Positions 1,658 through 29,189 of a stretch of 30,062 bases of DNA are shown one piece after another. Under the pieces are notes generated by a model, which was given only the letters and a program-made list of their open reading frames with translations, was not told the DNA's origin and searched no databases. A program made the translations under genes and the position numbers. The stretch's first letter is position 1, and every line of letters starts with the position of its first letter. The DNA comes from a virus: the IMG/VR virus record IMGVR_UViG_3300042898_003888, positions 1 to 30,062 of that record; one strand, 5' to 3'.

Positions 1658-2464
1658 ATGGAAAACATTTTAGACCTTACAGTTGTATTACCGATTAAGT
1701 CGGCTATTGCAAAAGATTTCGCAGAACTTTTTGGGAATGCGATATCGTCAGTTAAAAATCAAAAAGTTGGTGTCAAAGAACTTTTGATTGTCGCAACTCA
1801 AGAAGAACATTTACAAGACTTTCTTAAATCTTTTGATTTTGGAGATCAACCATACCGTATTTTAACTTGGGAGGGTGAACCAAGTTTTGCTGACCAAATA
1901 AATTATGGTATTAAAAGTTCAAACAGTGAATGGGTTTCCATTTTTGAGTTTGATGATGAATATGCATCAATTTGGTTTGATAACTTTAACAAATATCAAA
2001 AATACTATACGGATGTGGACGTGTTCCTTCCAATTGTTGTAGATACTAATGAAAAAGGTGTTTTTGCTGGTTTTACAAATGAAGCGGTTTTTGCCGCAAA
2101 TTTTGCACAAGAAATGGGATATCTTACAAACGATATCTTACAAGATTACCAAAACTTCCAAACATCAGGTATGATTTTCCGTAAAAAAGTTTATGAAGAC
2201 TATGGTGGGTTCAAATCAAGTATCAAACTTACATTCGTTTATGAGTTATTCCTTCGTTGGACTTATAACTCGGTAAAAATTATGAGTATTCCTAGAATCG
2301 GATACAAACACTCTAATATGAGAGAAGGTTCTTTGTTTTGGAACTACAAAAATGGTACTGACAAAATGTTAGATGAAGAAGTTAAGTTTTGGGTTCAAAA
2401 CGCAAAAAAAGAATATTTCTTCACCGAGGACAGATCCATAAAGTATGTTTCAACAAATGATTAA
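1658..2464 (+). CDS. GT-A fold glycosyltransferase, family 2-like
   Basis: A 268-residue protein. It opens with the family-2 pattern LDLTVVLPIK, then an AISSVKNQ helix and an LLIVATQ strand. A DxD-like metal/nucleotide site, FEFDDEY, includes D99 and D100. ATG 1658 lies one base after the previous stop; an in-frame ATG at 1649 overlaps that gene and is less attractive. The C-terminal half has a GMIFRKKVYEDYGGF segment (about residues 170-184) that matches the acceptor-side region of many GT2 enzymes. It is coupled to the upstream GT-B enzyme and overlaps the late sigma gene by one base (TAATG). Two transferases of different folds in tandem suggest sequential addition of at least two sugars; the acceptor is unknown. 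Confidence 0.75.
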   Translation: MENILDLTVVLPIKSAIAKDFAELFGNAISSVKNQKVGVKELLIVATQEEHLQDFLKSFDFGDQPYRILTWEGEPSFADQINYGIKSSNSEWVSIFEFDDEYASIWFDNFNKYQKYYTDVDVFLPIVVDTNEKGVFAGFTNEAVFAANFAQEMGYLTNDILQDYQNFQTSGMIFRKKVYEDYGGFKSSIKLTFVYELFLRWTYNSVKIMSIPRIGYKHSNMREGSLFWNYKNGTDKMLDEEVKFWVQNAKKEYFFTEDRSIKYVSTND

Positions 2465-3231
2465 TGTCAGAAACATTCACGGCGACATCAGAGACATTTA
2501 CGGCCACAACTGAAGACGCCGCTTCAAAAAAAAGAGGTAGAAAGGCTACTCAAACAAACTACTTCGATGTAAGAGAAGAAGAAGCTGTTAGAAAATATTT
2601 GATAGCGACTACTTTCGAAGAAAAAAATCGTATTTACAACGAATATTTGAGAGGACCTCTTGATAAGATGATCTCCTCGATTATTCGTCGATATAAACTT
2701 TACAGAAAAGATATGGATTTTCGTGAAACACACACGGATACACATTCATTTTTAATGACTAAAGTTGATAAGTTTATACCGGCAAAAAATAAGAAGGCTT
2801 ATTCTTATTTCGGTACAATTTGTAAGAACTATCTGATGGGTCAGATTATTAAAGATCAAAAAGATATGAATCGGAAAATATCTTATGAAGATATCTCTCA
2901 GTCCTTAGAAGAAAGACCCGACATGATGTACACCATTGACAATGACACTATAGAAACTGAAGTTGTTATTGCACAATATCTCACTGATTTAAAAGGTTAT
3001 ATTGATAAGGAAAACTTATCAGATAGTGAGGTAAAACTTGGATACGCACTTATTGACCTATTTGAAAACTACGATTCTATTTTTACCGGTACCGACAACA
3101 ACAAATTTAACAAAAATATCATTCTTTTGTCATTAAGAGAAATGACTAATCTTTCCACCAAAGAAATACGAAATTCTATGAAAAAATTCAAAAAACTATA
3201 TTTGGTGGTTCAAATGAAAATGAAAGATTAA
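2464..3231 (+). CDS. 55: Late-transcription sigma factor, T4 gp55-like
   Basis: A 255-residue protein longer than T4 gp55 (185 residues). Residues about 62-130 resemble a reduced sigma region 2: a helix with IIRRYKLYRKDMDF, then AYSYFGTICKNYLMGQIIK, the core-binding and promoter-melting segment typical of gp55 proteins. A distal part (about 212-255, NIILLSLREMTNLSTKEIRN) looks like a small helix-turn-helix. In T4 the homologue directs host RNA polymerase to late promoters together with gp33 and the sliding clamp. The first 17 residues hold a tandem duplication (SETFTAT twice), an unusual disordered extension. ATG overlaps the previous stop. No classical clamp-binding C-terminus was recognised. 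The role fits the recurrent TATTTATN motif in front of structural genes here. Confidence 0.8.
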   Translation: MSETFTATSETFTATTEDAASKKRGRKATQTNYFDVREEEAVRKYLIATTFEEKNRIYNEYLRGPLDKMISSIIRRYKLYRKDMDFRETHTDTHSFLMTKVDKFIPAKNKKAYSYFGTICKNYLMGQIIKDQKDMNRKISYEDISQSLEERPDMMYTIDNDTIETEVVIAQYLTDLKGYIDKENLSDSEVKLGYALIDLFENYDSIFTGTDNNKFNKNIILLSLREMTNLSTKEIRNSMKKFKKLYLVVQMKMKD

Positions 3232-3264: not shown

Positions 3265-3272
3265 TATTTATT
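3265..3272 (+). promoter_or_regulatory. Putative late promoter motif TATTTATT
   Basis: The 8-mer lies three bases before the ATG at 3276, just after the terminator of the upstream operon, so it is well placed to start a new transcript. With a T4-like box-to-start distance the mRNA would begin at or next to the AUG. Confidence 0.55.
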
Positions 3273-5810: not shown

Positions 5811-6020
5811 ATGACACAAGAAGAATTTAAAATTGTCGGGGAAGTTGTTAAGGATATAAAAAATGTTCCAAACGCTAAACTCGAAGAAACTATGGATAAA
5901 ATTTCCTCGGAGTTTGAATCGACCAAAAACGCTATCTTGGGTTTGAGTTTTTATATAGACAAGCTCGAAGAAATGTATAACAATTTACTTAAAGAATACA
6001 CAGACAGAAATGGGATCTAG
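5811..6020 (+). CDS. Small coiled-coil protein, tail operon
   Basis: Sixty-nine codons. The frame is open upstream, but the start is set at ATG 5811, one base after the preceding stop, because the longer reading would overlap a real gene by about 80 bases. The peptide is almost entirely helical with heptad-like spacing of hydrophobics (about residues 9-62) and is strongly charged. Its last bases overlap the start of the OB-fold gene by 11 bases. Such small helical proteins between baseplate genes are often assembly chaperones or minor plugs; no family is recognised. Confidence 0.65.
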   Translation: MTQEEFKIVGEVVKDIKNVPNAKLEETMDKISSEFESTKNAILGLSFYIDKLEEMYNNLLKEYTDRNGI

Positions 6021-7512
6021 AATTTGGTATTACGCAAAAGTTTTAGATAACCAAGATCCTTTGAACCTTGGTAGAATTCGTGCGAATTTATTAACTGATG
6101 ATGAGAGTGCCATAACAGGATCTGAAAAAGATTTCAATCCATTAAAGGACAAATGGACAGAAAAAGATCCTTATGTTTTTAACAGTTTATTACCTGTTTA
6201 TATCTATGCCGTTCCAAAAGAAGATGAACTCGTTCAGGTTTACTATCATGAAAATCAAACCGCTCAGTTTCTTAACGCCTACTATATTTCGGGACCTTTA
6301 TCAAGGATACAGAATATTGTTCAAGAAGACTACAATCAATCAGGAAAATATACCGATATAAGCGGCATCCAAATACTTGGAGCAAAAAACCTACGCAACC
6401 CTGATGGAACTTATAAAGATTCAGATCCTGATGGTGTATTTCCAAACCCTGGTGATATTGCCGTATTAGGTAGAGGATCTACCGATTTGATTCTTCAAGA
6501 AAACACAACATTACTAAGAGCAGGAAAATATAAGGGTGAGTTAGTTAGTGACACACAACCATCTGGTAATCCAAGAAGAGCTTTTCTACAACTTTCGAAG
6601 TTTCAACAAAAAACAATCGTCGGATCTACCAAACAATTTGCAGAAGTCAAAACACAAAGTTTACAAGTCAATTTTCTTATTGAATATGATATCACCAACC
6701 CCGAAAATAACTTTAATCTGTTCTCTGGAGCAGTAAGACTTTATCGATTAAAACCTGCGGAACAAACCTCATCAAGAAACATTCGTGTAGATTCTGATTT
6801 GGAACCCTTCAAAATACTCTCAGCGCAGTCAAGTTATAATTTACTTGGGATTGATGGTGTTATTGCCTTTATAAATAACTTCATTCAAAACTGTAATACC
6901 AAGTTGAAAACTTCAACTGGTATCCAACTTTTTTCTGTTACAGACCAAAGATTTCCAATATATTATAGACCAACAAATAGAATATATAACATATTGAGAT
7001 CCACAACGGATACCACAACAAGAAATAATATCACAACGGTATTTCAATCAATTAAGTTAAATCCGAACACACAAAAAGGGGGTTATAATTTGATATATGA
7101 ACAATCACGTGAAGGAGAACCTGTTTCACTCACCTTTAAAAACTACAAACAAGTCACCACAACAAACCTTCCTGAGACATACGCGACACTTGGTGGTAAC
7201 TACCTGTATCTTTTGTCTTCACTTTCTCAAGTACCCGGTAAACAAAAGATCAACTTCGAGAATAGTTTATATGGAATTCAGGAAGAACAGTTTGTAAAAG
7301 AAATATTCCCAAGAACTTCAAGCGCCGTTCGTGGTGAAGAACTTTTAGAACTCCTTAACCTGATTGTAAGGTTCTTGGTAAGTCATGAACACGGGTTTCC
7401 AGGTGAACCCCCGGTTTCAGTGACACAGGACGGATCCACAGTGTCAGGTCTCTTGGCAGAACTAAATGCCGCTTACCAAAAGGTCTTAAGTCAATATATT
7501 AGACTAAATTGA
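6010..7512 (+). CDS. 5: Baseplate hub/spike protein with gp5-type OB-fold
   Basis: A 500-residue protein. Residues about 6-90 match the N-terminal OB-fold of T4 gp5 and related spike proteins: AKVLDNQDPLNLGRIRA, then a conserved Trp/Pro stretch (DKWTEKDPYVFNSLLPVYIY) and PKEDELVQVYYHE, the strand that closes the barrel. The rest is beta-rich and Asn/Thr/Gln-rich. A short conserved-looking tail, LLNLIVRFLVSHEHGFPGEP (about 455-474), contains a His-Glu-His. No lysozyme catalytic segment and no long triple-helix repeat is visible, unlike T4 gp5, so peptidoglycan hydrolysis must be elsewhere if this is the central spike. It ends just before a late-type motif. The OB-fold call is from the N-terminal motif; the hub role is inference. 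Confidence 0.7.
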   Translation: MGSRIWYYAKVLDNQDPLNLGRIRANLLTDDESAITGSEKDFNPLKDKWTEKDPYVFNSLLPVYIYAVPKEDELVQVYYHENQTAQFLNAYYISGPLSRIQNIVQEDYNQSGKYTDISGIQILGAKNLRNPDGTYKDSDPDGVFPNPGDIAVLGRGSTDLILQENTTLLRAGKYKGELVSDTQPSGNPRRAFLQLSKFQQKTIVGSTKQFAEVKTQSLQVNFLIEYDITNPENNFNLFSGAVRLYRLKPAEQTSSRNIRVDSDLEPFKILSAQSSYNLLGIDGVIAFINNFIQNCNTKLKTSTGIQLFSVTDQRFPIYYRPTNRIYNILRSTTDTTTRNNITTVFQSIKLNPNTQKGGYNLIYEQSREGEPVSLTFKNYKQVTTTNLPETYATLGGNYLYLLSSLSQVPGKQKINFENSLYGIQEEQFVKEIFPRTSSAVRGEELLELLNLIVRFLVSHEHGFPGEPPVSVTQDGSTVSGLLAELNAAYQKVLSQYIRLN

Positions 7513-9599: not shown

Positions 9600-10088
9600 A
9601 TGGGTAGACAATGTAGTAAATGTGGTGATATTAAATCGCATGATGATTTTTATCAAACGCAAAGAGGTAATAGATGTAAGGAGTGTATTTTAATTGGGAC
9701 TAGAGAGTATAAGAGAAAAAAAAGATTAGATCCTGAACATAGAAAAACTGAAGGTGTTAAACAAAAAGAAAGAAGAATAAGACTTTGGCAAAACACTTTA
9801 ATACACGATTCAAAACACCGTAAGTTTGAAAATACCTTAACTGTTAATGAGATAAATGAAATATACGACAAACAAAACGGTTTATGTTATTGGTTCAAAA
9901 TCCCCTTAATACCTTCAAATCGTAAAAAACACCCTCAACAACCCTCTTTAGATAGATTGGATCCAAAAAGAGGTTATACCAAAGACAACGTGGTCTTGTG
10001 TTGTTATTCTGCAAACATCGGTAGAAATGAAAATGACATCGATACTTGGAAATCTTTTTTAGAAATTTTGTTCCGAAACAATAATTGA
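9600..10088 (+). CDS. HNH-type endonuclease with zinc ribbon, free-standing
   Basis: A 162-residue protein. ATG 9600 is preferred over 9576 because it places the late motif three bases upstream and starts directly at the zinc ribbon. Residues 5-27 hold CSKC and CKEC pairs separated by 16 residues. The basic middle (about 38-75) suits DNA binding. Residues about 93-160 match HNH/endonuclease VII-like folds: NGLCYW, then PSLDRLDPKRGYTKDNVVLC and an N-x-G-R-N stretch, where the Asp-Arg and Asn are typical of this family; the first catalytic His appears replaced by Ser-Leu-Asp, as in many phage members. Such genes are usually homing endonucleases in intergenic sites. It is isolated between a terminator and a host-type promoter, consistent with mobile insertion. 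Confidence 0.75.
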   Translation: MGRQCSKCGDIKSHDDFYQTQRGNRCKECILIGTREYKRKKRLDPEHRKTEGVKQKERRIRLWQNTLIHDSKHRKFENTLTVNEINEIYDKQNGLCYWFKIPLIPSNRKKHPQQPSLDRLDPKRGYTKDNVVLCCYSANIGRNENDIDTWKSFLEILFRNNN

Positions 10089-10098
10089 TGTATATTTG
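10067..10098 (+). promoter_or_regulatory. Bacteroidetes-type host promoter (TTTG-N20-TATATTTG)
   Basis: TTTG at 10067-10070, a 20-bp spacer and TATATTTG at 10091-10098 match the Bacteroidetes primary-sigma consensus TTTG/N19-21/TAnnTTTG exactly. The expected start is a few bases downstream, giving a leader of roughly 10 nt before ATG 10116. The -33 element is inside the end of the HNH gene. The two genes behind it are probably transcribed by unmodified host polymerase, hence early or constitutive. Confidence 0.7.
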
Positions 10099-10115
10099 TA
10101 GTCAAATATCAACCC

Positions 10116-10520
10116 ATGAAAAACCTCTACCACCTTTTCCGTAGGTTTGTCCAAAAACAAACTATTCGAGCATTTCGATATGTTCAGACTGATTACGAAA
10201 AATCAGTCTATGAGAATGATTCTATCTCTATTTGTAAGAAGTTGATCAATCAAAAAGAAACCACACTTCTTCTTACACCAAGGAGTGGTAAGAGATATAT
10301 TAAAAGCGAATCCTCCGACATTTTTATTATTTTAGATAGTCATAGAATCAAAATCATCAACCACATCTATGCTTATGATATCTACGTTACAGATAAACCT
10401 TGGACTAAGTTGCTAGACTACTTTGACACGGAGGTGGAAAAAAGAAGAGATGAGTTTGAAAAACAAATCACCTCTAACATTCAAAGTTCACTAAAAAAGA
10501 TTTTACACGAAGTCAAATGA
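10116..10520 (+). CDS. Hypothetical protein, first gene of a host-promoter operon
   Basis: A 134-residue protein with a basic N-terminus (HLFRRFVQKQTIRAFRYVQT), a beta-rich middle (about 48-98) and a charged helical C-terminus from about residue 110. There is no signal peptide or clear membrane segment. It follows a strong host-type promoter and its stop overlaps the next ATG (ATGA), so it is co-translated with the membrane-anchored Pro-rich protein. I do not recognise it. An early host-takeover or envelope-exclusion role is suggested only by promoter type and partner. Confidence 0.6.
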   Translation: MKNLYHLFRRFVQKQTIRAFRYVQTDYEKSVYENDSISICKKLINQKETTLLLTPRSGKRYIKSESSDIFIILDSHRIKIINHIYAYDIYVTDKPWTKLLDYFDTEVEKRRDEFEKQITSNIQSSLKKILHEVK

Positions 10521-11729: not shown

Positions 11730-13538
11730 TTATCTCAATTCTCTCAAGTCGAACGTTCTAACACCATCAACTGTGATTCTACCGTAGAAACGGTTGTTCA
11801 CCATCTTCTTAGCGTATCTTGTCATGATACCCTTGATCGGGGTGAAGTTGAATGGGTTATACATCGTTGGAGTGAGTTGTAAAGGTACATACGGAGCGTA
11901 AATGTAACCTGTATCAAGTAACGATGTACCTTTGTGTCCTAACAACACCTGGTTTGCAGGGAAGTAAGGGTCACGGTAAACTTGATATCTACCAGCAAGT
12001 GTACCAACTCTTTCAATACCCATGTTGTATTGATCTTGCTCAGGAGCTGCGTTCGATACGTGGAAGTACTCCAAGTCGTCGAAGATTGCAGAAACCTCTG
12101 AAGATACAACGATCCAGTTAGCACCACCTCTTAAGGTTGACTTGTGAATCTGAGCTGAGATTTGGTTGATTGCTGTAATAAGAGTTTGGTTCCAGTCCTT
12201 CTGTGTGTAAGGAACAGCATTTGATCCAAGTCTCTTCCATCCGTTGTAGTCCCAACGTAGATCCCAAGCAGCACCTTTTCTAAGGTCTCTCAAGATTTCA
12301 CGGTCGATTTCCGCAGCAACTTGTTCAGACAATAAAGCTGTTAACTCAGCCTCAGCGTCGATGTTGTGGAAAGCCGCAACGTCTTGTGCCATTTCAGGAG
12401 ACCATTGAGCTCTAAGTTTTCTTTCAGTAACCGAAACAGTCACAGACTGAAGGTCGAAAGAAACTTCACCGATCTTATCTTCAAACTCCAAGTTTTTGTA
12501 AAGTCTGTAACTAGCCACAAATGCCGTATTAGCAGTTGTACTAGAAGAGAATGGTGTACCAACGTAACCATCGATTGTGTTTGCACCTACTGTTGCTGGT
12601 GTTGTAAGGTCAACTTCTAAATAGATTTCACCTTGAGCATTACAAACGTCATCGTATCTACCACCGTCAGTTTTACTAGTTGGGAAAACTGCGTCCTGTT
12701 GTGAACCGTATTGTACAATACCCTTACCATATCTTTGAGTTACAACTCTAAATAGGTAATTGTTGTTGGTGTTACCTGAAGTATAGTTGTTACCTGCAAC
12801 ACCTCTGATAGTCAAACTTGCTAAGAAACTTTCAGTATCCATTGGATTACCATCAGGACCAATAAGTTTTCCAGCTCCGTCTGATCCGAAACCTGACATA
12901 ATCAACAATACCTTACTAGTTGTTGCGTTGTAAGCGTATGCCGCAGCTATCAAGTTAGTACCATTCCAAGCTGCAGTTGTAACACTAGTGCCTGATGCCG
13001 CGTTAATGACAGCGTACCGACCTTTTGAGTAATCGAAAAGACCTGGAGGATCAAGTGCTGGTTCATTACCTTCGTAGAATCTATCATAAAGGTCTTTTTG
13101 AGTGTTTACATCATATCCACTGTTTGGAGTTTGTAATGCGCCTGCATTTGGTGCTCCAAAAGGTGCGTAATGTGTAGCACCATTAGCGGTTTCAGTTTCA
13201 TATTCCTGAATCAAAGGTACGAAGTAAAACAACTTACCGATAGGTAGGTTCATAGCTTGTACTGAAACGATATCGTTAGCAAGAAGTTTAGAGAAAACTC
13301 TTCTTACGATTGGAAAAACAACAGTTTCAAATGAACCTGAGTCAGCCGTAGTTGATGCTTCGTTAATAAGATAAGAAGCTTGGTTTTCATACAACTGAGC
13401 TACGTTTTCTTTAAGGTGACCATTAAGACCTTCGAGGAATCCTAATTTGTCCCATTTATTTATTGTATCTTCTTTGATAACTTTTAGGTGTTTTAGACCG
13501 ATGTTACCAACAAGACCACTTTCTAATAATGCTCCCAT
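11730..13538 (-). CDS. 23: Major capsid protein, T4 gp23-like
   Basis: A 602-residue HK97-fold capsid protein, longer than T4 gp23 (521). Diagnostic segments: VVFPIVRRVFSKLLANDIVS in the N-terminal part (about 73-92), AEAELTALLSEQVAAEIDRE (395-414) and a C-terminal NPFNFTPIKGIMTRYAKKMV. Residues 51-64 (ENQASYLINEASTT) contain INE before Ala61, matching the (I/L)xE-A rule and position of T4 maturation cleavage after residue 65; removal would leave about 542 residues. Residues about 120-350 are Gly/Thr/Asn-rich and probably include an enlarged insertion domain. It lies 30 bases downstream of the scaffold gene with no separate promoter seen, and a strong terminator follows. Codons look more GC-rich than in neighbours, as expected for the most abundant product. 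Confidence 0.95.
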   Translation of the reverse strand: MGALLESGLVGNIGLKHLKVIKEDTINKWDKLGFLEGLNGHLKENVAQLYENQASYLINEASTTADSGSFETVVFPIVRRVFSKLLANDIVSVQAMNLPIGKLFYFVPLIQEYETETANGATHYAPFGAPNAGALQTPNSGYDVNTQKDLYDRFYEGNEPALDPPGLFDYSKGRYAVINAASGTSVTTAAWNGTNLIAAAYAYNATTSKVLLIMSGFGSDGAGKLIGPDGNPMDTESFLASLTIRGVAGNNYTSGNTNNNYLFRVVTQRYGKGIVQYGSQQDAVFPTSKTDGGRYDDVCNAQGEIYLEVDLTTPATVGANTIDGYVGTPFSSSTTANTAFVASYRLYKNLEFEDKIGEVSFDLQSVTVSVTERKLRAQWSPEMAQDVAAFHNIDAEAELTALLSEQVAAEIDREILRDLRKGAAWDLRWDYNGWKRLGSNAVPYTQKDWNQTLITAINQISAQIHKSTLRGGANWIVVSSEVSAIFDDLEYFHVSNAAPEQDQYNMGIERVGTLAGRYQVYRDPYFPANQVLLGHKGTSLLDTGYIYAPYVPLQLTPTMYNPFNFTPIKGIMTRYAKKMVNNRFYGRITVDGVRTFDLRELR

Positions 13539-15494: not shown

Positions 15495-16211
15495 TTAACG
15501 TTTTAAATAATCGGTTAATTTTTTCATTAAATCAACAGACTTATCTATATTTGTGTCACTTGACTTTATTGTTTTTTCTTCCTCGAGATTTTCTTCATAC
15601 TTAATTCTGTCTTCAGGGCTTCCAAAAAGATATGCTCCTGGTGTTGATGGTGATGATACAAGGTCAAAACATATAAGTTCAAAATCATCTTGTACTTCGT
15701 TTTGTTCTCCAATTTTTTTCAAAGAACCTACTCCTCTTGAGGATACTCCCATAGTAACACCTTGTCTCATTAAGTTAGCGGCAATGTCACCTTTTGTTGA
15801 AACTATACCTCTTTCATGAAATCCTGGTGAAGTAAGTAACTTAAGTTTTCCCATAAGAATATTTCCATCCCACCAAATATCGGTTATAATGTGTGCAACT
15901 CTGTCCAAATCGATTAAAGATGATTCAGGGTGGTTTAACTCGGAAGTTGATAAACCCTTTTTAATCATTGTCTTATATTTGTCAGCTTCTCGTTTTAAAA
16001 TCCGTTCAGGATAAACTCTGCCATTTCTATTTGGTACGCCATACTTTTGAAGAACGGCATAAAACTCAAATGGATTTCTATAATCAATTTCTTTTTGTTC
16101 CTTAATAATATCCACATTTAATGGATCTGTAGGTGAAACATATCCGGCGTCCATTTCGATAAGAATACCCTTACCGGTTTGTCCCGCACCCAAAACACTA
16201 TAATCTTTCAT
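15495..16211 (-). CDS. 21: Prohead core maturation protease, T4 gp21-like
   Basis: A 238-residue serine protease of the herpes-like prohead fold (T4 gp21 is 212). Recognisable segments: YGVPNRNGRVYPERILKRE (57-75); SELNHPESS (90-98) with the likely catalytic His94; GVTMGVSSRGVGSL (151-164) with the likely nucleophile Ser158 (or Ser157); and CFDLVSSPSTPGA (181-193), where Asp183 may complete the site. In T4 the enzyme cuts capsid, scaffold and internal proteins at (I/L)xE before a small residue, then is itself degraded. Matching sites are visible in the capsid protein and in the 161-residue protein of this window. A late-type motif sits 15 bases upstream and the leader has a purine-rich AAAAGAGA stretch. 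Confidence 0.92.
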   Translation of the reverse strand: MKDYSVLGAGQTGKGILIEMDAGYVSPTDPLNVDIIKEQKEIDYRNPFEFYAVLQKYGVPNRNGRVYPERILKREADKYKTMIKKGLSTSELNHPESSLIDLDRVAHIITDIWWDGNILMGKLKLLTSPGFHERGIVSTKGDIAANLMRQGVTMGVSSRGVGSLKKIGEQNEVQDDFELICFDLVSSPSTPGAYLFGSPEDRIKYEENLEEEKTIKSSDTNIDKSVDLMKKLTDYLKR

Positions 16212-16226
16212 GAATCTCTTTTAAAG

Positions 16227-16234
16227 GATAAATA
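16227..16234 (-). promoter_or_regulatory. Putative late promoter motif TATTTATC
   Basis: Fifteen bases before the protease ATG, between the stop of the upstream hypothetical gene and the protease. Confidence 0.5.
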
Positions 16235-16242
16235 TTATGGTA

Positions 16243-16692
16243 TTACATAACTTCTTCAATAATTGTATTTTTGGATGGTGTGAATACAAAATATTTGTTT
16301 TTAATTACACATTGTTTGTAGATTTCTCTAACAATGTTCTTAACAGAATCTTTTACTGTGTTTGATTTAAAATCAATTTCAGTGTTTGTAAAAAGATTTA
16401 TTTCAAGATTCATAAATGATTTTTTATTAATATTTATTCCACTTGTTCGTAAGTCTAAATCAACAATATAGTTGTTTTTATAAAGATTTAAATTCAGACT
16501 TTCTAAAACAGAATGTTTCACATCTCTCGATAAATTACCAACAATACGTTCCCAATTATCGTATTCTTCTTTTGGTTGAACCCAACTTTGAACATTTATA
16601 TATAACGATTTCAAATTTTTTGAATCAACTGTACCGTATGTAGTTTTTAGTGAGGGATAAGAGTTAATTTTTACTGTTTTACCTTTTTTCAT
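16243..16692 (-). CDS. Hypothetical protein between bS21 and protease genes
   Basis: A 149-residue basic protein with alternating strands (SLYINVQSWV, about 30-39; NNYIVDLDLRTSGININKKS, about 73-92; MNLEINLFTN) and a helical C-terminal third ending in IIEEVM. No membrane segment, no recognised motif. It lies in the 20-21 interval where T4 keeps head-core genes 67 and 68, and is divergent from the bS21 gene. It might be a head-core component or a small beta-barrel virion protein; no clear TATTTATN box is present upstream, only a degenerate TATTTTTATA. Confidence 0.6.
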   Translation of the reverse strand: MKKGKTVKINSYPSLKTTYGTVDSKNLKSLYINVQSWVQPKEEYDNWERIVGNLSRDVKHSVLESLNLNLYKNNYIVDLDLRTSGININKKSFMNLEINLFTNTEIDFKSNTVKDSVKNIVREIYKQCVIKNKYFVFTPSKNTIIEEVM

Positions 16693-16755
16693 ATTTCAGA
16701 TATTTCATCTGTTTATTTTATAAAAATATAGGAAGTAATTCTGTTACTCCAAACA

Positions 16756-16763
16756 TATTTATA
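16756..16763 (+). promoter_or_regulatory. Putative late promoter motif TATTTATA for the bS21 gene
   Basis: Four bases before ATG 16768. It is one of the few + strand copies in the - strand head region, which supports it being a true gene-linked signal. Confidence 0.55.
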
Positions 16764-16767
16764 AAAT

Positions 16768-16959
16768 ATGTTAATTGTTGAAGTAAACTCCAATATTGAA
16801 AAGGCACTAAAAACCTTAAAAGGTAAAGTCATTAAGACCAAACAAACAAAACTTCTTAATAAACGTAAGGAGTTTGTAAAAAAATCAGTAAAGATAAGGC
16901 TTAATAAAAATAAAGCCATTTATGTTCAGAAATCTAAGATTGAAGTTGAAAAGGGATAG
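16768..16959 (+). CDS. rpsU: Phage-encoded ribosomal protein bS21 homologue
   Basis: Sixty-three residues with the bS21 layout of the 30S subunit platform: start MLIVEV, helix NIEKALKTLKGKV, then LLNKRKEFVKKSVKIRLNKN and KAIYVQK. Both the MLI start and the RKEF..KKS..R....KA.Y.Q pattern are closer to Bacteroidetes bS21 than to the E. coli form. Tyr52 sits in the KAxYxQ position where, in Flavobacterium bS21, a Tyr helps cover the anti-Shine-Dalgarno tail of 16S rRNA. Phage bS21 copies are known in other large phages and are thought to enter host ribosomes. It lies alone on the + strand within the head region, four bases after a late-type motif, and overlaps the convergent gene by 26 bases. 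Confidence 0.8.
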   Translation: MLIVEVNSNIEKALKTLKGKVIKTKQTKLLNKRKEFVKKSVKIRLNKNKAIYVQKSKIEVEKG

Positions 16960-17647
16960 ATTCACTTAAGTGTTTTAATCTAACAAAATTGACTTGATCA
17001 AAATTCTCTGACTTAATCTTATTAATAGTTTCGATTAACTTGTTTTTCATTTCAGAATCTTCATTAGATTCCAAAATAGCATTTAAACTATTGATAGTAT
17101 TTTCTTTCAAGTTAGTATATTCTACCTCTAACTCTTCTTCTTTTGATGCCAAAATATGAAATACTTCTTTTTTTACATCCTCATCTAAGGTTTCTAAGTA
17201 ATTTTGAACAGTTTGGTTAGCAATAGTAACCATAGACCTTAAGGGTATTAAAATTTTTGTTTCGTTAATTTTTGGTTTTGAAGTTAACACACCTAAAACT
17301 TGTTTTTTTGATTCTAATCTTTCTGAAATATTGATATTATTTAGGTAAACTAAGTTATCTAAATCTTTATAGTTATTCTCAGAAATTTCACCTTTTTTTG
17401 GAAGTTGAGTGTCTTCTAAAATTACTCTAACCAAGGATAGTCCCTCTTCCAAATATTCTTTAGCGTCATTTTCTGTTAACCCTTTCGGGGTTGATAGATC
17501 ATCATAAAGGCTGTATAGTTTTGAAAAGTTTTTATTGTTCAAAACATTATGTTTAAACTCCTTGAGAGTTTTCTTAAAACTTAAGGAATTAGAATAAGAT
17601 TCTAGTAAGTTTTTTTCTAAGATGGATTTAATTTGTCCGAAGGTCAT
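16934..17647 (-). CDS. Helical hypothetical protein at the T4 67/68 position
   Basis: A 237-residue, almost entirely helical protein with charged heptad-like segments (about 150-235, including EEELEVEYTNLKENTINSLN). No Cys, no membrane segment. It lies between the portal gene and the protease-side genes, where T4 encodes the small prohead-core proteins gp67 and gp68, so a head-core or portal-associated role is plausible by position; no sequence match to either was recognised and it is much longer. A late-type motif overlaps the end of the portal gene 24 bases upstream. Its 3' end overlaps the bS21 gene on the other strand. Confidence 0.65.
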   Translation of the reverse strand: MTFGQIKSILEKNLLESYSNSLSFKKTLKEFKHNVLNNKNFSKLYSLYDDLSTPKGLTENDAKEYLEEGLSLVRVILEDTQLPKKGEISENNYKDLDNLVYLNNINISERLESKKQVLGVLTSKPKINETKILIPLRSMVTIANQTVQNYLETLDEDVKKEVFHILASKEEELEVEYTNLKENTINSLNAILESNEDSEMKNKLIETINKIKSENFDQVNFVRLKHLSESIPFQLQS

Positions 17648-17679: not shown

Positions 17680-19530
17680 TTACGAATTAAGTAACTTGTC
17701 TAACTCTTCCTCTATTTTACCCAAACTTTGTTGTGCAACACCCAAATCTAAAAACCTCGAACTGAAAATATCACTCTCAATTAAAATATTCATATCCCTT
17801 TGTGTTGTTGATTCAGGTGTTAGTTCACCACCTTCAGGAGATCCACCCATTTCTTCAGCACCACCGAGTTGAGGGCCTGTCATTGCTCCTAAATCATCAC
17901 CTAATCCACCTAACTCAGCGCCAGCAGGTTCTGTAGTTTCTCCCGCAGCGGTTACGGGTACGTCACTAGGTTTCGTGCCATAAAGTTTGTCTACAGTATC
18001 AAACACACCTGTTTTAGAAATGACAGTTGCGGTATTCTTAAGTTCTTCACCGATAGCCTTTTCCATTCTTTGTTGTAGAAGATCAGTTCTAATATCTTCA
18101 TCAGACCATGCAAATAAGTGTTTTTTGGCCCAAGTTGAAGATGTTGGTTGAATACCATTACCAGGATCAGAAACCATATCTTTGTAAAGAAGCATTTTTT
18201 CTTTCCAAATATCTACTTTGAGAAGATCGGCTTGAGTCGATGGGTTTGTTAAACCGAGTGTGAAGTTTGAGATTTCCTCTTCGAAACCTAACAAGAATAA
18301 ATGAATGATTGCAATCTTATTCAATTCTTGTAACATGGACTTTTGAATTCTATTGATAGTCCTTGCAAATCGAATATCCATCAAAGCCAAAGTTTTACCA
18401 TCACCAACCACTTCTTCAAACCCTAAGAACGCTTTAGGGATACGAAGTGCAGTAACAAGTTTTTTCTGAATATACTCAATATCAGCAATTTCAGCTAAGT
18501 TCTGAGCACCTGGTAAAGTTTCGATAGGACTCGGTTGTGAAGGATCACGAACAGGAATAAAATAATCTTGGTCAACAGCCATTTGGTTGAATCTCATATC
18601 CACATTACCTGTTTTGGAATCTACAATTTGATTTCGTTTAAACTTGTTAGCAACACGTTGTACATAAGCTTCCACATCATCATCGTTCATGTTTCCAACA
18701 TAAACTTTAAATACACGTCTTTCAGGCGCTCTAGAGGTACGATAGATCAACATGGCATCTTCAGACAACAAAAGTTGTTTCCAAATACGACGAGATTTTT
18801 CTAACATGGATGTGCCATATGGTAATCTTCTATCGTCACCTAACAATCTGAAGTGACCAATTTCCCATGGTTGAAAATCCATGTTTTGGGCTTTCCAAGT
18901 AAACTTGAGACCTTTGTTTTCAGATCCTGTTGGTGGTTTACCACTCATATTAAAATTATGGGTCGAAAGACCTGTTTCATATCGTTCAACTTCAATATTT
19001 GGCAATTGTTGACATCCAACAACACCCTTTTCAGGATCTAATCTTAAATAAATAAAGTTATCACCATACTTACACGTGTTTCTTGTCCACATTGGTAAAT
19101 TGGTGTTTATATCTAAGTTACTATTAAATAAATCGGCTAAAACAGATTTTATTCTTTTTGATTCTGAATAAATTTGCAGAATAAAACCGTCTTCGTTTGG
19201 AGTGGTTGATTCTTCAGCATAAATGTCTAACGCTGCAGATATTTCAGGTGTGTACTCCATAGATTCGTAATCGTAATACGCAGCAAGTCGGTTTGGTTCA
19301 TAATAAACCGCTTGGTTGTAAAGATTACTTTCAACCTTTGAAAACTGATTAGATAAGTAAGCTGACTGTTGAGCTTGTAGTTTTTCTTTTTCATACTCCT
19401 CCTTATCTTGTGTTCTTAAGATTTCTTTCTTATCAAACTTATAAACAGGATAATCCTGATTCATAAGGGCATTAGGACCTAAAGCTCTACTTAGTCTTTG
19501 CCAAACCGTATTATTTTTGGGAGTACTCAT
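17680..19530 (-). CDS. 20: Portal vertex protein, T4 gp20-like
   Basis: A 616-residue portal (T4 gp20 is 524), the dodecameric DNA channel at one capsid vertex that binds terminase and nucleates head assembly. Family segments: MEYTPEISAALDIYAEESTT (91-110); WTRNTCKYGDNFIYLRLD (148-165); RLPYGTSMLEKSRRIWKQLL followed by SEDAMLIYRTSRAPERRVFK, the stem/clip region strongly conserved in gp20; then ALRIPKAFLGFEE. The C-terminal 100 residues are Gly/Pro/Glu-rich (PAGAELGGLGDDLGAMTGPQ) and probably disordered, an extension absent from T4, ending in a helical LGKIEEELDKLLNS. It lies 38 bases after the terminase stop with a late-type motif between them. Confidence 0.93.
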   Translation of the reverse strand: MSTPKNNTVWQRLSRALGPNALMNQDYPVYKFDKKEILRTQDKEEYEKEKLQAQQSAYLSNQFSKVESNLYNQAVYYEPNRLAAYYDYESMEYTPEISAALDIYAEESTTPNEDGFILQIYSESKRIKSVLADLFNSNLDINTNLPMWTRNTCKYGDNFIYLRLDPEKGVVGCQQLPNIEVERYETGLSTHNFNMSGKPPTGSENKGLKFTWKAQNMDFQPWEIGHFRLLGDDRRLPYGTSMLEKSRRIWKQLLLSEDAMLIYRTSRAPERRVFKVYVGNMNDDDVEAYVQRVANKFKRNQIVDSKTGNVDMRFNQMAVDQDYFIPVRDPSQPSPIETLPGAQNLAEIADIEYIQKKLVTALRIPKAFLGFEEVVGDGKTLALMDIRFARTINRIQKSMLQELNKIAIIHLFLLGFEEEISNFTLGLTNPSTQADLLKVDIWKEKMLLYKDMVSDPGNGIQPTSSTWAKKHLFAWSDEDIRTDLLQQRMEKAIGEELKNTATVISKTGVFDTVDKLYGTKPSDVPVTAAGETTEPAGAELGGLGDDLGAMTGPQLGGAEEMGGSPEGGELTPESTTQRDMNILIESDIFSSRFLDLGVAQQSLGKIEEELDKLLNS

Positions 19531-19560: not shown

Positions 19561-19568
19561 TATAAATA
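19561..19568 (-). promoter_or_regulatory. Putative late promoter motif TATTTATA for the portal gene
   Basis: Directly abuts the stop codon of the terminase gene and lies 30 bases before the portal ATG; the leader ends in TAGGAAATG, a possible short Shine-Dalgarno. Confidence 0.5.
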
Positions 19569-21335
19569 CTATTTAGCGCCAAATAACCAAGCATACTTAA
19601 TATAATCGTCACGAGTGACTTCTCCCATATTATTATTACGTCCCATACCTGGTTGAGAAAAGGACGGGACTTGAGGATTGAAAAACTGTGAGGGTTCCTT
19701 ATTTTCGTTTACAAATGTTGACCAAGAATCAATCATTGCTTTGGTATGATTTGTAACTTTTTGTAATGAAGGGAAAGCAGCTTCGGCAACATATAACGCC
19801 ATAGAAATAGACATTATACAATCATCATGATGTCCTTTTTGGTGATCAGGTCTACCATTAATATATATAAATGTACCCATCTCATTAAGGAGTCTATTTG
19901 ACCGAATTTTAAACTCATGTCTCATAGATTCTTCAAGTGCGGAAATTATTTGAACACGTTTGTTATTAAAGTTAATACCTGGAATCTTATCTTTTACCTT
20001 AGGATCATATTTCCATTTATTAGCAATATCAATCCCATCATAAAAGAAGTTTTCATATCCTAGTTCCTGTAATCTTCTGGCTGTTGCAACACCCATACCT
20101 CCTGTTAAATCAATAACACAGAGTGCACTATACATAATACCCCATTTGTAAGCGATGTCTGCTAAAATATCTGGTGGAACTTTTCCAACATATTCTAAAA
20201 CTTGTTCCCTACTATCGAAATCAATAATTTCAATACACGAAAAGTCTTCAGAGTCACCTCGAGAAACATCTATCCCCATAACATACTTATGACCGTTTTC
20301 GGGTTCCTTCCATAACCAAAGTTGGTTTGCCATAAGTTTAGCCTGAGGTTCACGAATATCATTCTTAAGAATATCCTGTAACATTTGAGAATCAAAAACG
20401 TTATCACCTGAACCTAAAAAGTTACATTCCAATTCTTGGGCAACTTTTCTTTTATCGTATTTGAGTTTTTTTACCATCGCCTCAAACCATGAAGAACATG
20501 GTTTATATCCGTCCTCAATGTATTTGTGTAAAGTTTCTAAATTTCTTTCGTGTCTATTTTCTGTTGCAAGGTCAATAACGGCATCTGAAGGGTATTGTTC
20601 TTTATTGAGAAGATAGTGGACCATATCATTTGTTTTGACCATGTATAGATCCTTTGTATATCTTGGATCTCGATACCAAAACATTTCAGTTATTTTGAAA
20701 TCGTTCATGCCTCTTAAAGCCTGATCATAAATTTCATAGTAAATCGCATCGAATCCGTTGGGTGTCGAAATTACAACGACTTTACCTCCCGTTGATAGGG
20801 ACGCCATACAAGCCGCCCAAAAATCACTGTCAGCTTCGATAAAAGCAGCCTCATCAAAAATAAGGATGGTTGGTGAATATCCTCTTAAAGCATCTCGGGA
20901 AGTTGCTACGGCTTTAATTTCACAACCATTAGTGAGTTTAAAATGTCTCGCAGAGTTTTTTTCAGGCGCAAATCCTGTACCAACCCAAGAAGGCCATTGT
21001 TCAGTAAACCCTCTTATTTTATTGGCAAATTCTACAGAGGTATCAAGTTTGTTTGCGATAATAAGGACTTTTTCAGGTTTGTTCTTATTTGCAAAGGCTA
21101 ATCTTTTACTTGCCCACGCAGCTGTAACAGTGGATACACCCGCTTGACGATATTTTAAAGCAATGTTTTCATTGTAGTCTTCGTAATCGTTAATAAGGTT
21201 TACTTGATCTTGGAAAAGTTCCAATGGAACAAAACGTGAAACAGTGTTGTCGTAAGTTTGTAAGTAAGTTTTCAGAGCATAAGGAGTGCTTTTCATACAC
21301 TTCTTATACTCTATTATGACTTGTTCTTTTGTCAT
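19569..21335 (-). CDS. 17: Terminase large subunit, T4 gp17-like
   Basis: A 588-residue packaging motor with nuclease (T4 gp17 is 610). The ATPase half shows a Walker A-like KYRQAGVST (61-69), Walker B TILIFDEAAF (156-165) and a coupling VISTPNG motif (188-194). The nuclease half shows GIDVSRGDSEDF (354-365), CVIDLTGGMG (406-415) and GHHDD (501-505), giving the acidic metal-binding cluster expected for the RNase H-like fold. No intein or intron is seen. The start overlaps the stop of the upstream gene (TAATG). In T4 the sheath and tube genes 18 and 19 separate gene 17 from gene 20; here portal follows directly. Confidence 0.95.
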   Translation of the reverse strand: MTKEQVIIEYKKCMKSTPYALKTYLQTYDNTVSRFVPLELFQDQVNLINDYEDYNENIALKYRQAGVSTVTAAWASKRLAFANKNKPEKVLIIANKLDTSVEFANKIRGFTEQWPSWVGTGFAPEKNSARHFKLTNGCEIKAVATSRDALRGYSPTILIFDEAAFIEADSDFWAACMASLSTGGKVVVISTPNGFDAIYYEIYDQALRGMNDFKITEMFWYRDPRYTKDLYMVKTNDMVHYLLNKEQYPSDAVIDLATENRHERNLETLHKYIEDGYKPCSSWFEAMVKKLKYDKRKVAQELECNFLGSGDNVFDSQMLQDILKNDIREPQAKLMANQLWLWKEPENGHKYVMGIDVSRGDSEDFSCIEIIDFDSREQVLEYVGKVPPDILADIAYKWGIMYSALCVIDLTGGMGVATARRLQELGYENFFYDGIDIANKWKYDPKVKDKIPGINFNNKRVQIISALEESMRHEFKIRSNRLLNEMGTFIYINGRPDHQKGHHDDCIMSISMALYVAEAAFPSLQKVTNHTKAMIDSWSTFVNENKEPSQFFNPQVPSFSQPGMGRNNNMGEVTRDDYIKYAWLFGAK

Positions 21336-25008: not shown

Positions 25009-26265
25009 TTAATTGTTGTAACCACTACTACCTATTCTGATAGCAGATAAGTCAACAACATAGGCTGTTCTTGATGGTTCATCAATTACATAATCTGTTG
25101 GATGTTCAACTATGGTTCCAAATAGAGCTGAATCCCAAGTTCCTCCACTAAAACTACCCGTTTGTCCAGTACCATACGCGTATGGTACATTTACATATCT
25201 GGTACCGTAGGGAGTTTTGGAGGGTGTTGGTGTTGTTGTTTTAGTTGGTGTAATTGATGGGGTCACCGTTTTAGTTGGGGTTATTGATGGGGTTATTGAT
25301 GGGGTCACCGTTTTAGTTGGGGTTATTGTTGGTGTTGGGGTAGAAGTAGATGTTGTTGTAGGTGTTACTGTTCTTGTTGGAGTAACTGTTGGTGTCACTG
25401 TTTTAGTTGGTGTTACAGTAGGTGTCACTGTTCTAGTTGGGGTTATTGTTGGTGTTGGGGTAGAAGTAGATGTTGTTGTAGGTGTTACTGTTCTTGTTGG
25501 AGTAACTGTTGGTGTCACTGTTTTAGTTGGTGTTACTGTTCTAGTTGGTGTGGGTGTAACCTCTAAAATACATTGTGCACAGTTTTCCCAAGGACCTGTA
25601 ACAAATACGGCCCTCTGAGCTAAAGGAGTTTCAACATAGTCACCAACAGTGTAACATGCTGAAGTTCCTGCAACTGTTAATTTATATATCTTATTTTGAT
25701 CTAATGATCCATTTATCAAGATTGGAAAACTAACACTATCCAAACAAGCCGTTAACCAATAATATTCGATAGGGGCAGGTGTGTTTGATGGTGTAATCGA
25801 TGGTGTAATCGTGTTGGTTGGTGTCACGGTTTTTGTTGGTGTTACAGTTGGGGTTACAGTTCTTGTCGGCGATACTGATAATGTTGGAGTTGGAGTTGCT
25901 GTATTTGTCGAAGTTACTGTTGGAGTAACCGTTTTAGTTGGGGTTATTGATGGTGTAACAGTACTAGTTCTTGTTGGTGTGACGGTCGAGGTCAGCGACG
26001 GGGTCACGCTAATAGTTGGTGTGACTGTCGGTGTTGGCGTGGGTGTTGCATCTAACAAACACTCTGAACAATTTTGCCAAGGTCCTGTAACAACGGTTGC
26101 CGCCTGTGCTAAACTTGTTACGACTCCAGTAGCAACTGAATAACAACCTGTAGATCCTCCAAAATTCAATTTATATACCGCACCCGTTTGTAAGGATGAT
26201 GTTGTAACAACATAAAATGATCCACCGCCAGTACAAGAGGTTACGTAGTAATAAAATGACGCCAT
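25009..26265 (-). CDS. Thr-Pro repeat protein with duplicated four-Cys domain
   Basis: A 418-residue protein of unusual architecture. Domain A (about 1-72) and domain B (about 167-236) are homologous copies with identical Cys spacing: Cys, 29 residues, Cys, 24 residues, then CxxC, ending in GPWQNCSEC or GPWENCAQC. Each is followed by a rigid Thr-Pro linker built from TPTVTP/TKTVTP/TRTVTP hexads (about 73-166 and 237-352). A C-terminal domain (about 353-418) starts YGTRYVNVPYAYGTG and ends RIGSSGYNN. No signal peptide, so secretion is unlikely; display on the virion, as a fibre, head decoration or glycan-binding protein, fits. Thr-Pro linkers are typical of glycosylated spacers. Two late-type motifs lie upstream. 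Function inferred from architecture only. Confidence 0.75.
   Translation of the reverse strand: MASFYYYVTSCTGGGSFYVVTTSSLQTGAVYKLNFGGSTGCYSVATGVVTSLAQAATVVTGPWQNCSECLLDATPTPTPTVTPTISVTPSLTSTVTPTRTSTVTPSITPTKTVTPTVTSTNTATPTPTLSVSPTRTVTPTVTPTKTVTPTNTITPSITPSNTPAPIEYYWLTACLDSVSFPILINGSLDQNKIYKLTVAGTSACYTVGDYVETPLAQRAVFVTGPWENCAQCILEVTPTPTRTVTPTKTVTPTVTPTRTVTPTTTSTSTPTPTITPTRTVTPTVTPTKTVTPTVTPTRTVTPTTTSTSTPTPTITPTKTVTPSITPSITPTKTVTPSITPTKTTTPTPSKTPYGTRYVNVPYAYGTGQTGSFSGGTWDSALFGTIVEHPTDYVIDEPSRTAYVVDLSAIRIGSSGYNN
25314..25536. repeat. 120-bp tandem repeat encoding Thr-Pro linker
   Basis: Bases 25314-25416 recur identically at 25434-25536, a 103-base exact match with a 120-bp period (40 residues). 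The wider region 25220-25560, and again 25780-26040, is a degenerate 18-base repeat coding TPTxTx units. Length variation by recombination or slippage is likely. Confidence 0.85.
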
Positions 26266-26335: not shown

Positions 26336-27088
26336 TTAATCCACTTTTCTTACTTCAAGTGATAGTTCTTTATCTAATTGTTTGTTAACAGTATTGTAAA
26401 GTTTCTCCATCAAACCCGATCTTCGAAGATATTTAAAGACCAAGTTTTCATATGAAAGTTCACCAACTTCTTCTAAACCTGATTGTCTATATTCTTTTAT
26501 TTTCTTTTTAAGGTTGTCGATTTTGTCCTCATTTTTTTTCATGCCTTCAGACTTTATTGAAGATATGATATTTTCAATTTTATCTCTCCAACCATCAACT
26601 TTTACTTTTAAAGTTGACTTATCAATTTTAAACTCCTCTTTTGTTGGAACATTAATCCACTCATCGGTCATAATAGAATACGTACCTGTTGAAAAATGGG
26701 ACTCTTTTTCATCCTGAGGATACAACTCAACTTCGTATCCGAATATACTAATATCGTGTTTTTGGTTGAAAAGTTGTTTCTTTAACTGAAAAAGTTCTTG
26801 ATACAACTCTTTTTGTTTTCCGTAAACCGAATAGTCAATTATAACGTGTAAATCAAAGTCGGAATACTTGGACCAGTTATAGTTTGCTAATGATCCTGTT
26901 AGAACAACGTCAACAACTTCGATTTTATCGTCAAGTCCTGAAATAAACTCATCAGCAATTTTTAGTAAAGCATTTCTAACCTTTGACTTCATAACAGACT
27001 CTGTTGGTCTATCAGAGTTTTCAAAGACTTTAGGGTTTAAAGTTTCTTGTAGATTGAAACTACTTAATATGTTTGATAAGGAATCCAT
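26336..27088 (-). CDS. Nucleotidyltransferase-fold protein
   Basis: A 250-residue protein of the DNA polymerase beta-like nucleotidyltransferase superfamily. The signature is complete: VVLTGSLANYNWSKYSDFDL (61-80) gives the Gly65-Ser66 motif and Asp77/Asp79 pair, and GYEVELYPQD (117-126) supplies the third acidic strand residue. The C-terminal half is a charged helical bundle (about 155-250). The family transfers nucleotides to RNA, antibiotics or proteins; minimal members act as toxins. The acceptor here is unknown. It starts four bases after a late-type motif that begins just after the KTSC gene, so it is made late with virion proteins, odd for a nucleic-acid enzyme and more compatible with a packaged or protein-modifying activity. 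Confidence 0.75.
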   Translation of the reverse strand: MDSLSNILSSFNLQETLNPKVFENSDRPTESVMKSKVRNALLKIADEFISGLDDKIEVVDVVLTGSLANYNWSKYSDFDLHVIIDYSVYGKQKELYQELFQLKKQLFNQKHDISIFGYEVELYPQDEKESHFSTGTYSIMTDEWINVPTKEEFKIDKSTLKVKVDGWRDKIENIISSIKSEGMKKNEDKIDNLKKKIKEYRQSGLEEVGELSYENLVFKYLRRSGLMEKLYNTVNKQLDKELSLEVRKVD

Positions 27089-27092
27089 CCTT

Positions 27093-27100
27093 AATAAATA
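27093..27100 (-). promoter_or_regulatory. Putative late promoter motif TATTTATT
   Basis: Four bases before ATG 27088 and abutting the TAG stop of the KTSC gene. Confidence 0.5.
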
Positions 27101-27349: not shown

Positions 27350-27644
27350 TTTTTTTCAAGGGATATAACTCATCAATTTTATCACTAACATTTTTAATGT
27401 AAACAGCCCAATTTTTTTCGTTAGGAAAAAATAGATTGACCTGACTCTTTAAATCATGGAGATATGCTCCAAATTTTTCTCTGTGTAATAATAACTTAAT
27501 TGGTGGATTCGACATCTTAGCTGCTTGTTCTTCAGTATAACCTTCATCATAAAGATATTTTCTGATTTTCAAATACTCATCCATCATTCTTCTAAAGTAG
27601 ATGGATTTATTAATAAAGCGAACTATTGCTTTTTCAGTTGACAT
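27324..27644 (-). CDS. Hypothetical helical protein
   Basis: A 106-residue basic, helical protein (KSIYFRRMMDEYLKIRKYLY, about 13-32; then SNPPIKLLLHREKFGAYLHD). No motif recognised. It starts three bases after a late-type motif which in turn follows the terminator of the ParB-like gene, so it opens the unit containing KTSC and nucleotidyltransferase genes. The acidic C-terminus (NGSEEGND) overlaps the KTSC start. It may be a partner of one of these small proteins. Confidence 0.6.
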   Translation of the reverse strand: MSTEKAIVRFINKSIYFRRMMDEYLKIRKYLYDEGYTEEQAAKMSNPPIKLLLHREKFGAYLHDLKSQVNLFFPNEKNWAVYIKNVSDKIDELYPLKKNGSEEGND

Positions 27645-27647
27645 ATT

Positions 27648-27655
27648 AATAAATA
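27648..27655 (-). promoter_or_regulatory. Putative late promoter motif TATTTATT
   Basis: Three bases before ATG 27644, and immediately after the T-tract of the upstream terminator, so a new transcript must start here or read through. Confidence 0.55.
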
Positions 27656-27685
27656 CAAAAAACCCCCACTTTAAATAGTGGGGTT
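27656..27685 (-). terminator. Intrinsic terminator after the ParB-like gene
   Basis: On the - strand CCCCACT and AGTGGGG pair around a 6-base AT loop, followed by a T-run (27657-27662). It lies 16 bases after the gene's stop. Confidence 0.75.
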
Positions 27686-27700
27686 ATTTAATCTTATAAT

Positions 27701-28648
27701 TTATTTTGTTTTTTTTACGCAATTGGGGTATCGTTTCCCGAACATTGTCTTCATACCTTTTTGAGTGTACCCCTTCCAACATCTTTCGGTCAACTCACTT
27801 TCGTTTTGTTCTTGTTTTCCCATGTGGGAAAATACTTTTCTAATATTCTTTGGAAGTAAATTGATTGGGATAACCTTTGCATTAATTGTTCCCAATTTAT
27901 TTTTGACAGCTTTTTGGGCCCTATGATGTCCATCGATTATTGAAATAAAAGAACCGTCATCTTCCACAAATATCAAAATAGGATATTGTAAATCGGCCTT
28001 GTCAATTTTTACCCTTTCTTCCTCATCACCATCCCAAGTTAATAAGTGTGGTTTTAAAACTTCCAAATCTACTTTTGATACGGGAATGTCCTCTGTTGCG
28101 TTCAACAAATCCATAAGTGTTACTTTATCACCCTCTTCATTTTCCCACGATGTGTCAAGTAATCCTTCTTTCATCACCTGAGTTTTTCTTTTTGACTCTT
28201 CTTTTTTGGACTCAATGTATTCAAACGCAGTCCTTAATCTTTTTTTTACTTCAGGGTCTTTAGCACTTTCTAATGCAACTCTTAATCTCTGGTGAATCAG
28301 ATTAATAATCTGAGATTGTCTTGCATGTGATTTTGATTTGAAACTTTCTTTGTTTAAGGTGTCAATAATATCTTGTTTGGTTCTGAACTTTACCGATACA
28401 GTATCACTTGGATTTTCATCGGTGTATAATCTTCTACTTGACCCTTCAGGTTTTTTTCCTGTTCCCACTTTTGGGTCCTTATCTTCAACCGTTTCTCGAC
28501 TATAGGGTCGAAACCTTAAAGGATTATTTTTGATTGCTGTTTTCGAAAATCTTAACCCGCTACCTTGTTTTCTGGCGTTTTTTAGTGATCTAGAATACTC
28601 CCCAAGTTCTTCTCTTAAAATCCTCAATATAGTTTCTCTAATGTCCAT
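27701..28648 (-). CDS. ParB/sulfiredoxin-fold protein with Cys-Lys tail
   Basis: A 315-residue protein. The N-terminal 60 residues are an amphipathic helix (MDIRETILRILREELGEY) followed by a basic stretch. The middle (about 90-160) is helical and charged. About 185-262 matches the ParB/Srx fold: VSKVDLEVLKPHLL, then YPILIFVEDDGSFISIIDGH (222-241) and HHRAQKAVKNKLGTINAKVI; the GHHRAQ motif corresponds to the ParB box that binds or hydrolyses a nucleotide. The last 27 residues form a separate basic module, ERCWKGYTQKGMKTMFGKRY then PNCVKK, common at ends of environmental phage proteins. There is no HTH, so a partition role is unlikely; nuclease or nucleotide-sensing activity is possible. Monocistronic: late-type motif upstream, terminator downstream. 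Confidence 0.75.
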   Translation of the reverse strand: MDIRETILRILREELGEYSRSLKNARKQGSGLRFSKTAIKNNPLRFRPYSRETVEDKDPKVGTGKKPEGSSRRLYTDENPSDTVSVKFRTKQDIIDTLNKESFKSKSHARQSQIINLIHQRLRVALESAKDPEVKKRLRTAFEYIESKKEESKRKTQVMKEGLLDTSWENEEGDKVTLMDLLNATEDIPVSKVDLEVLKPHLLTWDGDEEERVKIDKADLQYPILIFVEDDGSFISIIDGHHRAQKAVKNKLGTINAKVIPINLLPKNIRKVFSHMGKQEQNESELTERCWKGYTQKGMKTMFGKRYPNCVKKTK

Positions 28649-28651
28649 TTA

Positions 28652-28659
28652 GATAAATA
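28652..28659 (-). promoter_or_regulatory. Putative late promoter motif TATTTATC
   Basis: Three bases before ATG 28648 and downstream of the terminator of the UVR gene. Confidence 0.55.
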
Positions 28660-29181: not shown

Positions 29182-29189
29182 GATAAATA
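29182..29189 (-). promoter_or_regulatory. Putative late promoter motif TATTTATC
   Basis: Three bases before ATG 29178; it decides that start over the longer frame. Confidence 0.55.

Follow-up and report, generated by a model that had tools for sequence, protein, structure and literature searches.

The DNA considered here (the window) is a stretch of 30,062 nucleotides from an IMG/VR virus record, and comes from a large phage that probably infects Bacteroidota. It contains a T4-like head block encoded on the minus strand, with genes for a gp23-like major capsid protein (MCP, 11730..13538; PF07068, 3.9e-73), a prohead protease of the Peptidase_S77 type (15495..16211; PF03420, 6.3e-25), a gp20-like portal protein (17680..19530; PF07230, 5.2e-74), and a T4-type terminase large subunit (TerL, 19569..21335; PF03237, 2.1e-13, and PHROG 2). 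Within this block, one gene stands alone on the plus strand (16768..16959) and encodes a 63-residue ribosomal protein bS21, a placement opposite to the head genes that the initial annotation had described correctly. It is flanked by a divergent gene for a protein of 149 aa (16243..16692, minus strand), for which a Pfam search returned no family, and by a convergent gene for a protein of 237 aa (16934..17647, minus strand). At their 3' ends bS21 and the convergent gene share 26 nt (16934-16959); among relatives this overlap ranges from 4 to 144 nt. A late-type box, TATTTAT, occupies positions 16756..16762 of the plus strand, 5 nt before the bS21 ATG. A tRNA scan of the window found none.

The 63-aa ORF is, judging by its sequence, a genuine bS21. 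The initial annotation had staked this identification on similarity to bS21 in profile searches, and the protein reaches 33.1 bits against PF01165, whose gathering cut-off is 27; a second match to the family, at 16777-16929, has 31.9 bits. The best relatives found by phmmer in the PDB are bS21 chains from Bacteroidota, namely 9i5v_9 (1.7e-5) and 7jil_z from Flavobacterium johnsoniae (2.7e-5). In the alignment with 7jil, Tyr52 of the phage protein falls on F. johnsoniae Tyr54, the position involved in covering the anti-Shine-Dalgarno (anti-SD) sequence, as had been predicted; among 46 distinct phage bS21 proteins this position holds Tyr in 45 and His in one. Purifying selection acts on the phage gene, with dN/dS at roughly 0.02-0.1 (dS being near saturation in the subclade of the window). 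The narrower NCBIfam equivalog TIGR00030, on the other hand, has a cut-off of 28.95 bits, under which both the window protein (17.6 bits) and three clade relatives (22.8-25.3 bits) remain, whereas five Bacteroidota bS21 proteins score 53-68 bits; the F. johnsoniae sequence used in this scoring, and in the residue comparison below, combines residues 6-63 from the PDB alignment with two ends added by hand. The phage protein is therefore filed under the broad family PF01165 and outside the equivalog, which makes the clade a divergent branch of the bS21 family and leaves a different role possible. A search of PHROGs returned no match for the phage bS21.

This gene is an ordinary member of an already published group. 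Chen et al. 2022 (PMC9723584) described bS21-encoding jumbo myophages of Bacteroidetes, divided into clades a-e, and the arrangement that characterizes their clade is also found here: TerL, portal, prohead protease, and MCP are encoded on one strand and bS21 on the other, where it is flanked on both sides by genes for conserved hypothetical proteins. The likeness extends to the aromatic residue at Tyr54, the predicted freshwater Bacteroidetes hosts, genomes of 293-331 kb, and late expression. In metatranscriptomes of relatives, the same study found bS21 transcribed alongside core structural genes, in agreement with the late expression suggested in the initial annotation. Since the gene, its setting, Tyr54, and late co-expression all appear in that paper, the gene is of a known kind. 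A search of the phage collection used here did not turn up the sequences of Chen et al.; its best TerL matches were below 60% identity.

The arrangement recurs among relatives. The 149-aa neighbour is present in 78 of the 80 relatives fetched, and so is the 237-aa neighbour; with the window counted in, the 149-aa gene lies next to bS21 in 79 of 81 loci. When loci were anchored on the 149-aa neighbour instead, bS21 was present in all 75 that had room for it and, at the level of contigs, in 22 of 25. A more distant phage, L029, carries a bS21 gene (6001-6198) whose product is 62% identical to that of the window, and lacks the box and both conserved neighbours.

The phage proteins differ from those of their putative hosts in a consistent way. 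Between 45 phage and 42 Bacteroidota proteins there is almost no overlap in the residues used at F. johnsoniae positions 18, 19, 21, 23, 24, 28, 29, and 33, all of them near helix 1 of bS21. Among these eight positions, two aromatic residues are replaced by Leu and Val in the phages, and three basic positions lose their charge. Tyr54, Arg46, Ala52, Ser42, and Lys40, by contrast, are common to both groups. To judge from these residues, the pattern fits a protein that would keep the anti-SD lock while altering another surface. In this part of bS21, Chen et al. had found four residues to diverge significantly; the eight nearly non-overlapping positions go beyond that set.

A further difference concerns the region upstream of the gene. 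None of 41 distinct phages has an SD match of at least 6 nt before bS21. Among 46 host genes 13 have one, and in seven of these the SD measures 9-10 nt; the host contigs were scanned with a hand-made consensus query and came mostly from Saprospiraceae and Chitinophagaceae, with few Flavobacteria. In F. johnsoniae, autoregulation of rpsU, the host bS21 gene, depends on a strong SD (PMC9976891), so the phage gene, which lacks one, should escape this feedback. Compared with host bS21, then, the phage version belongs to the same Pfam family and shares the C-terminal half, including the A1534-stacking Tyr, and differs in its lower equivalog scores, its nearly fixed N-terminal differences, and the missing autoregulatory SD.

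What stands upstream of the phage gene is the late-type box. Of 41 distinct relatives, 39 have their best-scoring site, exact box or variant, 4-8 nt ahead of the bS21 ATG; the exceptions are L045 (19 nt) and L029 (none). The box drifts among relatives to forms such as TATTTCT, TATTTGT, and TATATGT, and its score exceeds the 95% shuffle level for that place in 24 of the 41 and falls below it in 16. A conserved AT-rich element at 16711..16734 (GTTTATTT...TATAGG), present in almost every relative, was another candidate for the bS21 promoter. It was discarded because a lineage from which bS21 is missing retains it; it therefore belongs to the divergent neighbour, being read here as the promoter region of 16243-16692 on the minus strand.

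The box of bS21 is one of many. TATTTAT recurs upstream of other genes of the window and, in the window and its relatives together, occurs in the last 45 nt before 137 of 494 non-redundant starts, versus 14.9 expected, which substantiates the late-type box proposed for bS21. Longer contigs of the clade show the same enrichment, with the box at 97 of 229 starts in G001 (321 kb; 6.7 expected), 83 of 241 in G003 (309 kb; 10.1 expected), 39 of 100 in G006 (4.8 expected), and 37 of 96 in G007 (2.1 expected). An EM motif fit seeded with TATTTAT yielded [A/G]TATTTAT[A/T], and no -33-like element was evident upstream of the box. The enrichment was not found in about 40 kb each of two other bS21 phages, LR756501 and LR756508. 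Matches to a generic sigma-70 promoter were not in excess in the window (53 versus 58.9 in shuffled sequence). One gene of the window, starting at 10116, is preceded by TATATTTG and an upstream TTTG (10077-10116), an element that resembles the Bacteroidetes host promoter and is unlike the phage box.

The distance between box and ATG in these phages is bimodal, at either 4-6 nt or 12-18 nt, each figure being computed within one genome. Among the 99 boxes of G001, 47 lie at 4-6 nt (7.2 expected if uniform, P 4e-27), only two at 7-11 nt (12.1 expected), and 33 at 12-18 nt; in G003, 37 of 87 boxes have the short gap, versus 6.4 expected, a fixed short distance above chance in both genomes. Examples in the window include, on the plus strand, the box at 3265..3271, whose gap of 4 nt to the gene at 3276 is kept in the orthologues of four genomes and, on the minus strand, those at 27094..27100 (5 nt before the gene starting at 27088), 27649..27655 (4 nt, gene starting at 27644), 28653..28659 (4 nt, gene starting at 28648), and 29183..29189 (4 nt, ATG at 29178). 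The short-gap products of G001 include a gp25-like baseplate wedge protein and proteins of endolysin and nuclease type. The main head genes are outside this class: where they carry a box the gap is roughly 16-31 nt, as in the leadered protease (16228..16234, about 16 nt) and portal (19562..19568, about 31 nt) genes of the window, both on the minus strand.

The protein that could read this box is possibly encoded in the window as well. A highly conserved protein of 255 aa (2464..3231, plus strand) is a candidate late sigma factor, whose profile has T4 gp55 (7d7c_F) as its top PDB match, at a weak E of 0.2. Its predicted model is of moderate confidence (pLDDT 66.6), and a Foldseek comparison of that model with PDB and BFVD returned sigma factors for the most part, with no match below E 0.001; a PHROGs search gave no match. 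The system would resemble T4 late transcription, where the gp55 sigma factor recognizes TATAAATA promoters, in its T4-like virion genes, its single AT-rich box with no evident -35 element, and its candidate sigma factor, for which gp55 heads the PDB profile matches. It differs from T4 in the sequence of the box, in the many boxes that abut the start codon, and in the weakness of the sigma similarity.

Bimodal spacing, together with terminators that end close to the ATG, makes it probable that many short-gap mRNAs, that of bS21 included, have no leader or almost none. If a box whose end lies 4-5 nt ahead of the ATG had the same spacing to the transcription start as the host promoter, that start would fall on the ATG itself. 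In 20 of 114 short-gap genes the T-run of a terminator ends 12-28 nt before the ATG; in four of them it does so at 12-13 nt, and the box fills most of the space that remains. The window offers an example at 27644-27683, where a terminator (27664-27683) directly precedes the box. Leaderless or short-leader late mRNAs had been postulated in the initial annotation, and their existence finds computational support in the spacing. In published host data, 87% of predicted transcripts have leaders longer than 10 nt.

Not every phage of the clade keeps bS21. The three contigs without it among the 25 that hold the 149-aa neighbour (G003, G005, and G038) are identical over the proteins compared, have both bS21 neighbours intact, and are nested among bS21-positive phages in a tree whose midpoint rooting makes loss of the gene the simpler reading. 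Where bS21 would lie, they have a brief segment that includes a terminator hairpin, and the TATTTAT box of bS21 is absent. As seen above, G003 nevertheless has 37 short-gap boxes among its 87, versus 47 of 99 in the bS21-positive G001, so bS21 is not required for the short-gap layout.

The explanation that we consider reasonably likely is that the phage bS21 takes the place of host bS21 late in infection, being expressed from its own start-hugging late promoter and free of host feedback. The host RNA polymerase, with the gp55-like sigma factor, would probably transcribe the gene from its late box, which lies so near the ATG that the mRNA is expected to start at or within a few nucleotides of it, and the SD-free gene should escape the SD-dependent feedback that limits rpsU in Bacteroidota. 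On the 30S subunit, replacement of the host protein would most likely retain the C-terminal half, with Tyr52, that holds the anti-SD tail, and bring in a phage-specific N-terminal half; ribosomes would then stay SD-blind and change their contacts with mRNA or rRNA. Entry of phage bS21 into host ribosomes in favour of phage mRNAs was already proposed by Chen et al. Against this explanation stand the drift of the bS21 box, the weak scores of the sigma candidate, and the lineage that does without bS21.

The promoter part of this explanation has two competitors. TATTTAT is AU-rich and near the ATG, and might act as a translation signal within a longer leader. This is quite unlikely: several genes have a terminator ending immediately ahead of the box, the two distance classes are separated by a trough at 7-11 nt, and boxes are few where the intergenic space is below 12 nt. 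Each start was taken as the first ATG of the open frame, and the short-gap peak could in principle reflect misassigned start codons, with the true ones further downstream. Random starts, however, would show no peak at 4-6 nt, homology to bacterial bS21 settles where the phage protein begins, and alignments of 36 orthologous short-gap pairs run in register from residue 3 or earlier in 27 cases; the start codons thus look right, and misassignment is very improbable.

As for the function of the protein, infection or host defence might deplete bS21, and the phage copy would then merely restore SD-blind ribosomes. This is possible but rather doubtful: the retention of Tyr54 and the C-terminal contacts, the SD-free gene that escapes host feedback, and the suggestion that host bS21 may be swapped out or degraded by phages (PMC9976891) all agree with it, while the eight nearly fixed differences around helix 1 exceed what plain replacement needs. 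The initial annotation went further, in that phage bS21 was to tune ribosomes toward leaderless or short-leader messages. bS21 and start-hugging promoters would then form one programme, and the two do co-occur in the clade. Moreover, leaderless mRNA is favoured by E. coli 61S ribosomes, from which bS1 and bS21 are missing (reviewed in PMC12186496), so the bS21 site can affect the choice of such mRNAs, and in immuto, a cultured Flavobacterium phage in whose genome a search found no bS21 match, the TATTTAT box exists with few short gaps (4 of 29). In E. coli, however, it is the loss of bS21 and not its addition that favours leaderless mRNA, the main head genes have the longer gaps, and the correlation between bS21 and leaderless layout across phages, when tested, was not upheld, as the bS21-less G003 shows. 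The idea that leaderless mRNAs are the clients of phage bS21 is weakened accordingly, and a single programme is unlikely. Equally improbable is a late two-sided reshaping of initiation, in which a sigma factor would drive leaderless mRNAs from dozens of promoters in a host with mostly leadered mRNAs, and phage bS21, translated from one of these mRNAs and beyond the reach of host feedback, would suit the ribosomes to them.

Within the favoured explanation of late replacement, three points appear to be new: the bimodal, start-hugging box, the SD-less phage bS21, and the eight-residue signature with the anti-SD Tyr kept. Promoters, sigma factors, and leaderless mRNA do not come up in the paper by Chen et al., nor is the nested loss of bS21 with both neighbours intact part of their description, and a literature search that covered few subscription journals found no earlier report of a start-hugging leaderless class. 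If real, this class would be sizeable, and would occur in phages of a phylum in which the model host makes mostly leadered mRNAs; it would show a phage bypassing leader-based initiation cues. The start-hugging promoters, the nested loss, and the missing SD are worth following. With a natural loss lineage, a predicted leaderless gene set, and a residue signature, the clade offers concrete tests of phage bS21 function, in hosts whose ribosomes have already been studied in vitro.

Two further observations concern other genes. An ORF at 25009-26265 of the window (minus strand), without a family in a Pfam search, contains long Thr/Pro-rich repeats of the type TPTxTKTVTPT. In the contig G003, the portal frame (202751-205567, locus L193) extends to 938 aa, and an insertion of some 250 residues, possibly an intein, separates its portal-like parts.
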